Virus record (IMG/VR): IMGVR_UViG_3300009151_000033
Location: 1-64,000 of that record
Strand: one strand, 5' to 3'
Length of the DNA: 64,000 nucleotides
DNA from: a virus
Shown piece by piece: positions 20,748-48,834 of the stretch. The first letter of the stretch is position 1. Every line of letters starts with the position of its first letter. The translations under genes were made by a program, and so were the position numbers. A model generated the notes under the pieces. The model was not told the origin of the DNA. It saw only the letters and a list, made by a program, of their open reading frames with translations, and did not search any database.

Positions 20748-20755
20748 TATTTAGG
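20748..20755 (-). promoter_or_regulatory. Late promoter-like box CCTAAATA
   Basis: Matches the TAAATA core of the late consensus; 24 bases before the ATG at 20724, the same spacing as the box before gene 23. Overlaps the end of the endonuclease gene. Confidence 0.45.
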
Positions 20756-21326
20756 CTCTCCAACCAGAAGCATATTTATTCTTCAATGTTTCAGATAATT
20801 TGGCTTTTGCTTCTGGTGATCTAGTTGTGCCTCGTTTCTTGGCTGCCAATTTTTCACGATGTTCTTCACTAAAACATTCACCCGTTTCTTTTTTACGTTT
20901 TTCGAATGCTTTACGTTTACCTTCAGCTATCTTCTGTCCGCGCCCCACAGGATCTGAAAATTCAATCTTCATTCCTTTATTGGTTTTTGATATTTTTTGG
21001 CCTATTTCAGCACGACGTTTTTCATCTGTTGACCAATGGCCAAATTCAGTATTATGGTGATTATAATATCTGATTTTAAGTTCTTCTTTTTTTATCATAG
21101 ATAGCCATCTATTTTCTTCATTCAACAAATCTTGTCGATTGGTTATTACAATTTTTAATATACGACGTTTGAAATCATCCGGCCTTCGTTTATAGGCCTT
21201 TTTCATCCAATCCGATGAGCAAATATAACCGTCATTTTGGTCACCCCAATGAGAACCAATATAATAACGCTTGTGTTTACGGTCAAACCAAATATACACA
21301 AACCCTGATGTTTTTTCTTTAGACAT
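20751..21326 (-). CDS. GIY-YIG homing endonuclease with NUMOD3 repeats (copy 1)
   Basis: 191 residues. N-terminal GIY-YIG domain appears as FVYIWFDRKHKRYYIGSHWG (residues 9-28), with the catalytic-type Arg region FKRRIL and Glu in NEENRWL. The C-terminal half contains NUMOD3-like DNA-binding segments (SEEHREKLAAKKRG, SPEAKAKLSETLKNKY). Freestanding, downstream of the major capsid gene, a favoured site for phage homing genes. It is a paralogue of 48200-48781. Its start region is embedded in a hairpin (21330-21359). Confidence 0.88.
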   Translation of the reverse strand: MSKEKTSGFVYIWFDRKHKRYYIGSHWGDQNDGYICSSDWMKKAYKRRPDDFKRRILKIVITNRQDLLNEENRWLSMIKKEELKIRYYNHHNTEFGHWSTDEKRRAEIGQKISKTNKGMKIEFSDPVGRGQKIAEGKRKAFEKRKKETGECFSEEHREKLAAKKRGTTRSPEAKAKLSETLKNKYASGWRA

Positions 21327-21329
21327 AAA

Positions 21330-21359
21330 AAATACTCCCGCATTGCTACGGGAGTATTT
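21330..21359 (-). terminator. 11-bp hairpin after gene 23 that also contains the endonuclease SD
   Basis: Arms AAATACTCCCG / CGGGAGTATTT (21330-21340 and 21349-21359, 8-base loop). On the minus strand it is followed by a T-run, so it is a good intrinsic terminator for gene 23. The second arm contains GGGAG, 8 bases before the endonuclease ATG at 21326, so the hairpin would hide that ribosome-binding site. Confidence 0.8.
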
Positions 21360-21362
21360 AGT
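21355..21362 (-). promoter_or_regulatory. Late promoter-like box ACTAAATA at the hairpin edge
   Basis: TAAATA core with two non-consensus leading bases. RNA would start about 6 bases downstream, inside or just past the first hairpin arm, leaving the SD unpaired. 29 bases before the endonuclease ATG. Confidence 0.45.
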
Positions 21363-21386: not shown

Positions 21387-22736
21387 TCAGAGAATATTAT
21401 TCACCAATACTGAACGATAGTACTGATTGGTTGCAGCAACTAGCTGGCCGTTTGACAACTGGGCACCAGGTGAGAATGGGTTGGCGACGACGCCGTAACG
21501 TGTCTTGAATCCAATCTTTGGCTGGAAAGTGTCTTGACCGACTGCACGGACCATTTGTAGTGGAACGTATGGGCAATAGAAGAGACCAGCATCGAATGCA
21601 GATGAACCCTTGTAACCAACAACCATATAATGACCGTTTGCATATGGGTCAATATAAACGCGGATACGGCCGTTAAGGACGCCAGCGAAAGTATTGCCTG
21701 TATCGTCAACTTCTAGATTATTGCTGTTTAGAGCAGGAGCGTAATCAAGAACACCGGCCATCTGTAGAGCAGACGCAACGTCTGAAGAACAGATAACAAT
21801 GTTACCCTTACCGCGTCTGGTTAGCTTGGCGATAGCGTTTGCTTCACGCTCAACTTGGAACATAAGGCCCTTGAACTTCTCAACTGACCAACGGCCGTTT
21901 GAATCGATGTCGAGGTCGAATGTGCCTGCGGTTGTTGTGTTAACAGCACCTTGAACGGCAGTAATTTGGATTGTACGAATGATTTCGCGATTGATTTCGG
22001 CCAAGATTTCAGAAGAAAGAATTGTTGACAATTCTGTTTCTGCGTCTAGACCATGGATGGCCTTGAGGTCTTGAGCGAGTTCGATTGAGTATTCTGCCTT
22101 AAGAGCACGGCTCTGGGCAGTTACTTGGACCTTCGAAATGCTGAAGGCCATTTGACGGAAATCAACGTTACCAGTTGCACCCAAAGTTTCAGCCTGAGCG
22201 GTAGTAGTACCACCAGAGAAGTTATACTGCTGGGTGTTTGAAGAAATAACGATTGAAGAGTTAACAGAGAAGTTGTTACCAGCTTGACCAAGAGGAGCAC
22301 CAGCACCGTTGGCGGTTAGACCATAGGTAGAAGATCCTGTGTTGGATTCGTAGTAGAATGCGTTGTTACCAGAACCGGTAGTTGGATCGCTCTGGATGTT
22401 ATACTGTGGTTGTAGGGCAAAGATAAGACCAGTTGGTCCTGTCATTGGCTGAACGCCGCAGATATCATAAGCAATGAGGTTAGGCATAGCTCTACGAACG
22501 AGTGAAATCAATACTGGGTCATAGTTAGCTGAACCACCTGTTAGAGAGGTAGGAGCAGATCCAGAGACTTCCATTAGAGACTGTGGAGCCCAACCACCGG
22601 ATTCGCGCATAGCTCTTTCGGTGTTTTCTAGCAATTGTGCTGTAACCGATCGGCGATGTACGTCACCAATTGATGGTAGTTCTGAGTGGTTAAGGACCTT
22701 ATCCCACTTATTTTGAATTTCTTCGTTTAGAAACAT
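21387..22736 (-). CDS. 23: Major capsid protein gp23
   Basis: HK97-fold capsid protein. 449 residues (T4 521). RRAMPNLIAYDICGVQPMTGPTG (about residues 83-105) is the hallmark segment of T4-like gp23; the C-terminal YRSVLVNNIL is also typical. By analogy with T4, the N-terminal propeptide would be cut by gp21; LME (residue 56) followed by VSGS is a plausible cleavage point (inference). Late promoter upstream, terminator hairpin downstream. Confidence 0.97.
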   Translation of the reverse strand: MFLNEEIQNKWDKVLNHSELPSIGDVHRRSVTAQLLENTERAMRESGGWAPQSLMEVSGSAPTSLTGGSANYDPVLISLVRRAMPNLIAYDICGVQPMTGPTGLIFALQPQYNIQSDPTTGSGNNAFYYESNTGSSTYGLTANGAGAPLGQAGNNFSVNSSIVISSNTQQYNFSGGTTTAQAETLGATGNVDFRQMAFSISKVQVTAQSRALKAEYSIELAQDLKAIHGLDAETELSTILSSEILAEINREIIRTIQITAVQGAVNTTTAGTFDLDIDSNGRWSVEKFKGLMFQVEREANAIAKLTRRGKGNIVICSSDVASALQMAGVLDYAPALNSNNLEVDDTGNTFAGVLNGRIRVYIDPYANGHYMVVGYKGSSAFDAGLFYCPYVPLQMVRAVGQDTFQPKIGFKTRYGVVANPFSPGAQLSNGQLVAATNQYYRSVLVNNIL

Positions 22737-48199: not shown

Positions 48200-48781
48200 T
48201 TACTTTCTGTTCCTATTTAGATTTAATTGCCGTAGCTTTTCTTTGGTTGACTCTTTCATGGGACGATTTTTATTTGGTCCTGGTTTACCTTTATGTACGT
48301 CTGATTGTCTCTGCCTGTATTCGGGATCGGACCAAATTTTCTTTTGTTGTTGTGATATCAATTCTCGTTTGTTCGTATTTTCATATTGGTCAAATAGAGA
48401 TTTTCGAATATTTTCTTTAGTTTCTTCTGATCTTTTTTTACCTTTATTTGAACTTGCAATTTTAGCTTTCGTTTCATCAGAATGACTATAACCAAGCATA
48501 GATGGCGTCGTTGCCTTTTGCGTTTTATTATAATATTTCTTATTTAATTCAGTTCGTTTAATCATATCCAACCATTTTTGTTCTTCGATAACAAGAGCTT
48601 CTTTTGTATGAACAATCGACACAATTCTGCGTTTGAAATCCATTGGACGCCGGCGATGTGCATCTCTCATACTATTTGATGAACAAATATATCCGTCATT
48701 TACATGGCCCCAGTGGCGGCCGACATAAAATCGATTATATCCTTTATCAAACCATACGTAAATAAATCCATACTTTTCCAT
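48200..48781 (-). CDS. GIY-YIG homing endonuclease with NUMOD3 repeats (copy 2)
   Basis: 193 residues. FIYVWFDKGYNRFYVGRHWG (residues 6-25) is the GIY-YIG core; FKRRIVSIVH and EEQKWLDMIKRTEL carry the Arg and Glu regions. C-terminal NUMOD3-like segments (HSDETKAKIASSNKGKKRS; KPGPNKNRPMKESTKEKL). N-terminal 90 residues are clearly paralogous to 20751-21326, the C-terminal halves much less so. Start region overlaps a hairpin. Confidence 0.88.
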   Translation of the reverse strand: MEKYGFIYVWFDKGYNRFYVGRHWGHVNDGYICSSNSMRDAHRRRPMDFKRRIVSIVHTKEALVIEEQKWLDMIKRTELNKKYYNKTQKATTPSMLGYSHSDETKAKIASSNKGKKRSEETKENIRKSLFDQYENTNKRELISQQQKKIWSDPEYRQRQSDVHKGKPGPNKNRPMKESTKEKLRQLNLNRNRK

Positions 48782-48790
48782 AGTAATTCT

Positions 48791-48819
48791 CCATAATACT
48801 TTGTACTATGGTATATAGG
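48791..48819 (-). promoter_or_regulatory. SD-overlapping hairpin with late-like box, endonuclease copy 2
   Basis: Stem CCATAGTAC / GTATTATGG (48803-48811 and 48791-48799, one G-T pair, 3-base loop). The GG of the SD GGAG (7 bases before the ATG) is in the second arm. CCTATATA (48819-48812) at the outer edge is one base from the CCTAAATA box seen at 20748. Confidence 0.45.
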
Positions 48820-48834
48820 CAAAGTTGCGAGTGT

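Follow-up and report, generated by a model that had tools for sequence, protein, structure and literature searches.

What does the single hairpin between the major capsid gene and the next ORF of a T4-like phage do for the GIY-YIG homing endonuclease gene that follows it? The window, i.e., the whole stretch of 64,000 nucleotides analyzed here, is contained in a 151,248-base virus record with a T4-like phage gene set. On its minus strand, the genes for the major head protein (phrog_138), scaffold, tail tube, UvsY, and helicase lie together. The gap from the end of gene 23 (21387) to the start of the GIY-YIG gene (21326) comprises 60 bases, with CTAAATACTCCCGTAGCAATGCGGGAGTATTTTTT abutting the ATG, and the minus-strand sequence from 21361 to 21324 reads CTAAATACTCCCGTAGCAATGCGGGAGTATTTTTTATG. 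A preliminary description had proposed that a hairpin in this gap switches the endonuclease between read-through and late transcripts, a switch which is well supported by sequence and comparison. We propose a one-way gate before a freestanding GIY-YIG gene, made of a terminator and a ribosome binding site lock and bypassed by an internal late start, and put the probability of this reading at about 0.75. In a megablast search with the region, cultured phages yielded a short capsid match only. Gene starts other than at the finding itself are simple script calls.

21387..22736, minus strand: gene 23, major head protein (phrog_138, E 5e-160), which supplies the read-through RNA
22766-22760, minus strand: late box ATAAATA of gene 23, 23 nt before its start
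20751..21326, minus strand: freestanding GIY-YIG homing endonuclease, 191 aa (phrog_314, E 2e-13; family-invariant residues intact)
20773..20779, minus strand: second late box of the tail-tube gene, ATAAATA, within the endonuclease ORF
20748..20754, minus strand: late box of the tail-tube gene, CTAAATA, overlapping the endonuclease stop codon
17207..17779, minus strand: gp55-like sigma factor for late genes; its match to T4 gp55 shows 40% identity

The endonuclease gene

The GIY-YIG motif of the encoded protein is GFVYIW...YYIG, and R48 and E71 are invariant in an alignment of 11 proteins. The gene is not intron-borne, as gene 23 upstream is complete. Judged by its sequence, it is a freestanding homing endonuclease with predicted cleavage and homing. 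Pfam and PDB sequence searches with the protein gave no match. The 3' end of the endonuclease ORF holds both late boxes of the tail-tube gene, so that loss of the endonuclease would probably deprive this structural gene of its promoters. A similar embedding was reported for segG and gene 32 (PMC2988022).

A second GIY-YIG paralogue (48200-48781, minus strand) is 35% identical overall. In its leader (48782-48820), CTATATA, a late box with one mismatch, lies 30 nt before the ATG, where it borders a 9-bp hairpin that hides part of the Shine-Dalgarno sequence (SD). This leader is possibly a decayed or variant form of the device at the gene-23 site.

The hairpin and its fold

21347..21359, minus strand: hairpin 5' arm, AAATACTCCCGTA (folding; covariation)
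21330..21342, minus strand: hairpin 3' arm, TGCGGGAGTATTT, containing the SD GGGAG at 21335-21339
21327..21332, minus strand: T6 run abutting the ATG, tail of the predicted intrinsic terminator of gene 23

No other hairpin lies between gene 23 and the endonuclease ORF. The stem after gene 23 has 11 Watson-Crick pairs, as had been described, or 13 with the inner U-G and A-U pairs, and carries a GCAA tetraloop. Its minimum free energy over 51 nt is -19.3 kcal/mol (z -5.9), a value that none of 200 shuffles equaled. The endonuclease SD, GGGAG, lies in the 3' arm, where it had been placed before, and 8 nt ahead of the ATG. The view that the T-run makes the stem terminator-like agrees with our prediction, in which a GC-containing stem (13 pairs, five of them GC) followed by T6 ranks first among the terminator-like sites of the 19 kb scanned.

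The preliminary description further stated that read-through RNA would hide the SD and that RNA started at the box would lack part or all of the first arm and leave the SD open. Computation predicts the same: the probability that the SD is unpaired is 0.0001 in read-through RNA vs 0.33 in RNA from the predicted start at 21349, and opening begins for RNA starts from about 21353 on. The predicted late RNA retains a weak fold (-5.4 kcal/mol), and hence the opening is only partial. The likeness to T4 I-TevI, which had also been pointed out, extends to this behavior, as the same computation gave a rise from 0.005 to 0.68 for I-TevI and from 0.001 to 0.25 for segB. For T4 gene 49, the values were 0.0007 and 0.68.

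Across the stem-bearing endonuclease leaders of relatives, SD accessibility has a median of 0.00 in long RNA and 0.54 in late RNA; other late genes have medians of 0.40 and 0.50. In L005, an endonuclease locus after gene 23, the SD is predicted to be hidden in long and late transcripts alike. This locus has tandem hairpins (L005:3935-4000), with the late box at the edge of the first and the SD inside the second.

The late promoter box

21355..21361, minus strand: putative late promoter box, CTAAATA; lies 28 nt before the ATG and overlaps the 5' arm of the hairpin at its outer end
21349, minus strand: predicted 5' end of the late RNA (+1 = G), from T4/Aeh1 spacing with the box at -12 to -6 (PMC1524935)

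Within 70 bases before gene starts of the 151-kb record, ATAAATA precedes 23 genes (1.5 expected) and CTAAATA 15 genes (1.25 expected), i.e., 38 (A/C)TAAATA sites vs about three expected. These boxes are mostly located 19-35 nt ahead of the start codon, including those of gene 23, the scaffold gene, and the tube gene, and the probability of a random occurrence in that span is about 0.6%. By this enrichment and the presence of a gp55-like sigma gene, (A/C)TAAATA is the late promoter of the window phage, and the box at 21361-21355 is not fortuitous. The box had already been noticed on the outer edge of the hairpin as ACTAAATA; its location stands and the motif is enriched, but it is better written as CTAAATA at 21361-21355.

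The published late box of Aeh1 is CTAAATA starting at -12, and that of T4 spans -13 to -6 (PMC1524935). With the same spacing, late RNA is predicted to start at 21349, inside the first arm. Another motif, GGTTGCC, is strongly enriched before genes of the whole record (15 vs 2.0 expected) and is possibly an early or middle promoter element.

Conservation among relatives

Relatives of the enzyme and of gene 23, plus cultured phages, were gathered by protein searches. The sample comprised 64 distinct leaders of endonuclease genes, all with a late box and none selected for a hairpin. They form 57 protein clusters at 80% identity, and the distinct contigs are not all independent. As a control, 308 other late genes were taken from the same contigs. 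Pairing of the box or spacer with the SD, of 6 bp or more, is present in 40 of the 64 endonuclease leaders vs 10 of the 308 other late genes (p 1e-27), and the stem is present in 38 of the 57 protein clusters. About a third of the late-box endonuclease leaders lack such an SD stem, and a T-run is found in only seven of the 40 SD-hiding hairpins.

In an arm-swap permutation test, which is free of stem-based leader selection, the leaders' own arms paired over a mean of 8.66 bp vs 6.38 bp (standard deviation 0.20) for swapped arms, and 0 of 20,000 permutations were as high. In an alignment of 38 leaders, which is biased towards structure as the leaders were picked for having the stem, double changes were found at eight of the 12 pairs (40 cells vs 14.5 in shuffles), and sliding the pairing partners abolished the signal. 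The double changes were counted on the named structure instead of using RNAalifold, which recovered only the inner five pairs from a MAFFT alignment because loop and tail lengths vary among leaders. By these comparisons, the stem is kept by compensatory change across relatives.

Of the control genes, the three with the longest stems are an HNH enzyme gene (L105), a gene that weakly matches a phage endonuclease (L026), and an unassigned gene (L290). HNH and other endonuclease-like genes with a late box paired to the SD are found at L105:5567, L026:77, and L108:6061; judged from these leaders, the device is common to several endonuclease families. A pattern scan for TAAATACTCC...GGAGTATT..ATG also matched structural genes of some freshwater phages, and the device is therefore not strictly confined to endonucleases. 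These loci were excluded from the statistics, since the scan itself selects for the hairpin. In the freshwater T4-like phages (L164-L238), apparently structural genes, with proteins beginning MAGNAIETAKQEN, MADGQSGAGAE, or MTPADLKK, have leaders of the form ATAAATACTCC-short loop-GGAGTATT-ATG. Such phages may use SD-hiding late promoters on ordinary genes too. Cultured phages with the same layout as the window are Rhizobium phage RHph_I1_18, where ATAAATACCTCGG...CCGAGGTATTTTTATG follows the tail-tube gene, and Sinorhizobium phage phiM12.

Insertion sites and the gene-23 terminator

The leaders are located after gene 23 and after the genes for head-tail adaptor gp13, gp14, sheath, tube, baseplate wedge, exonuclease, endolysin, and others. 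Judged from these many sites, the leader goes with the endonuclease gene and not with its neighbor, and it probably moves physically with that gene.

A terminator was detected after the stop codon in 68 of 69 gene-23 loci. The late box is located downstream of it in 46 loci, which is the arrangement of box-bearing gene-23 loci without an endonuclease gene. Only six loci (the window, L084, L106, L128, L074, and L076) have the box at the 5' edge of the terminator. In the first four of these, the terminator precedes a member of the window's GIY-YIG family; the other two, L074 and L076, lie next to genes of a different homing-endonuclease family, phrog_3339, with the gene on the opposite strand in L076. 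In L085 and L115, GIY-YIG-like genes lie behind an ordinary gene-23 terminator and the box is not nested, as read by eye.

All eight family members after gene 23 have the late box at the 5' edge of a hairpin. Their leaders are terminator-like in six of eight cases, compared to none of 14 after gp13 and four of 35 elsewhere (6/8 vs 4/49 outside gene 23, p 1e-4, with a gene-23 sample of eight). Half of the gp13-site leaders still hide the SD. In L003, the closest relative after gene 23, the T-run is poor, and hence terminator activity is not strictly conserved. Three leader types can be distinguished, all with the late box at the 5' edge of a hairpin: the SD in a stem without T-run as in I-TevI, the SD in a stem with T-run as in the window, and the SD behind the terminator (L084, L128, L050).

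We see about an even chance that the terminator is adapted in strength to the insertion site and that, at gene 23, the 5' arm of the capsid terminator houses the late promoter. One 38-base element would then end capsid transcription, hide the SD in leak-through RNA, and launch a terminator-proof late RNA. The fusion of the lock to the gene-23 terminator is what is new here; no description of it was found in the literature searched, which includes only a minority of subscription journals.

Proposed mechanism and alternatives

According to the one-way gate model, polymerase arriving from gene 23 would transcribe both arms, and the hairpin with U6 would act as the gene-23 terminator. RNA that passes the terminator would keep the endonuclease SD paired and stay untranslated. 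Polymerase with a gp55-type late sigma factor would initiate at CTAAATA, with +1 near 21349 in the 5' arm, and the resulting RNA, having lost the blocking arm, would neither terminate nor hide the SD. The promoter motif, hairpin, SD pairing, covariation, and site-dependent terminator quality described above come from sequence and comparison, and from them we infer the exact 5' end, the termination, and the difference in translation. The gate acts probably as dosage insulation rather than in early/late timing, because gene 23 itself is late and so are the transcripts from upstream. In this respect, the proposed switch between read-through and late RNA is supported but is not mainly one between early and late.

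The terminators found at the same place in 68 of 69 gene-23 loci would also fit a plain gene-23 terminator, in which SD and CTAAATA are coincidental and arise from GGGAG-CTCCC and T-run-A pairing; AAATA is indeed partly forced by pairing with TATTT. We consider this improbable, since such pairing is found in only 10 of 308 other late genes, the T-run in only seven of the 40 SD-hiding hairpins of the family, and the 46 other box-bearing gene-23 loci place the box after the terminator. In addition, gp13 leaders are never terminator-like, yet half of them hide the SD. The conservation of the lock, the scarcity of T-runs, and the poor one in L003 speak for a ribosome binding site lock with late promoter as in I-TevI and segB, in which gene-23 RNA passes freely and translation alone is controlled. 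For the window this is rather unlikely, as no terminator-like site of the region is better than the 13-bp GC-containing stem with T6, terminator quality follows the gene-23 site (p 1e-4), and gene 23 would otherwise miss the terminator that its relatives possess.

The hairpin could also chiefly block early or middle transcripts. Such classic early/late timing has been published for I-TevI and gene e and is offered in general for hairpins of this kind (PMC2988022, PMC3014915), and it could add to the insulation from gene 23. As the chief role it is doubtful here, because the upstream neighbors are head genes, gene 23 and the scaffold gene have their own late boxes, and an early transcript across the region is not known.

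Comparison with known systems

The comparison indicates that a control device known from few endonucleases of the T4 group is common in this GIY-YIG family, with covariation, across environmental T4-like phages and many insertion sites, so that it likely travels with the gene. At the capsid locus, it also suggests a way for a selfish gene to follow a gene with very strong transcription and yet leave that gene its terminator. In our interpretation, the endonuclease gene is shielded by the gate from expression through capsid transcription and has a late promoter of its own. The cultured carriers RHph_I1_18 and phiM12 make the device directly testable.

I-TevI: The leader in the td intron of T4 is like that of the window, with ATAAATACTTCT...AGAGGTATTTATG, a late box on the 5' arm, the SD in the 3' arm, the ATG close behind it, and the same computed switch. 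Unlike the window, I-TevI is intron-encoded, its blocked RNA is early/middle, and there is no T-run. The operator of I-TevI overlaps its promoter.

Other endonucleases: A hairpin with a late promoter was reported for I-TevI, I-TevII, I-TevIII, T4 segB, and Aeh1 mobE (PMC2988022). T4 segB is a freestanding GIY-YIG gene with ATAAATACTCTTAGAAATAGGAGATATTTATG and an SD that is hidden in the long RNA (PMC2988022), but it is located in the tRNA cluster and has no T-run. Aeh1 mobE, which is likened here by description, is a freestanding endonuclease with an SD-sequestering hairpin and a late promoter (PMC2988022) in a phage with the box CTAAATA (PMC1524935); unlike the window's enzyme, it is of the HNH type and lies inside a ribonucleotide reductase gene. 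In seg43 of Aeromonas phage 25, a very stable hairpin directly precedes the GIY-YIG gene, with the SD outside the stem (PMC2988022). In this it differs from the window and resembles the leaders of L084 and L128, in which the SD also lies outside the hairpin.

Ordinary phage genes: Genes e, soc, and 49 were added to the hairpin/late-promoter group (PMC3014915). The leaders of T4 e and 49 have an SD-hiding hairpin with ATAAATA in the 5' arm, and soc has an SD-hiding hairpin at a late-gene start (PMC3014915). Unlike the GIY-YIG gene, these are not endonuclease genes.

On every sequence feature tested, the window fits the I-TevI/segB/mobE kind. The preliminary description had regarded use of the lock by a freestanding enzyme as its own inference; the enzyme here is indeed freestanding, but the principle is not new, as T4 segB and Aeh1 mobE are precedents (PMC2988022, PMC3014915). 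What sets the window apart from the T4 leaders read is its T6 tail and its probable role as the gene-23 terminator.
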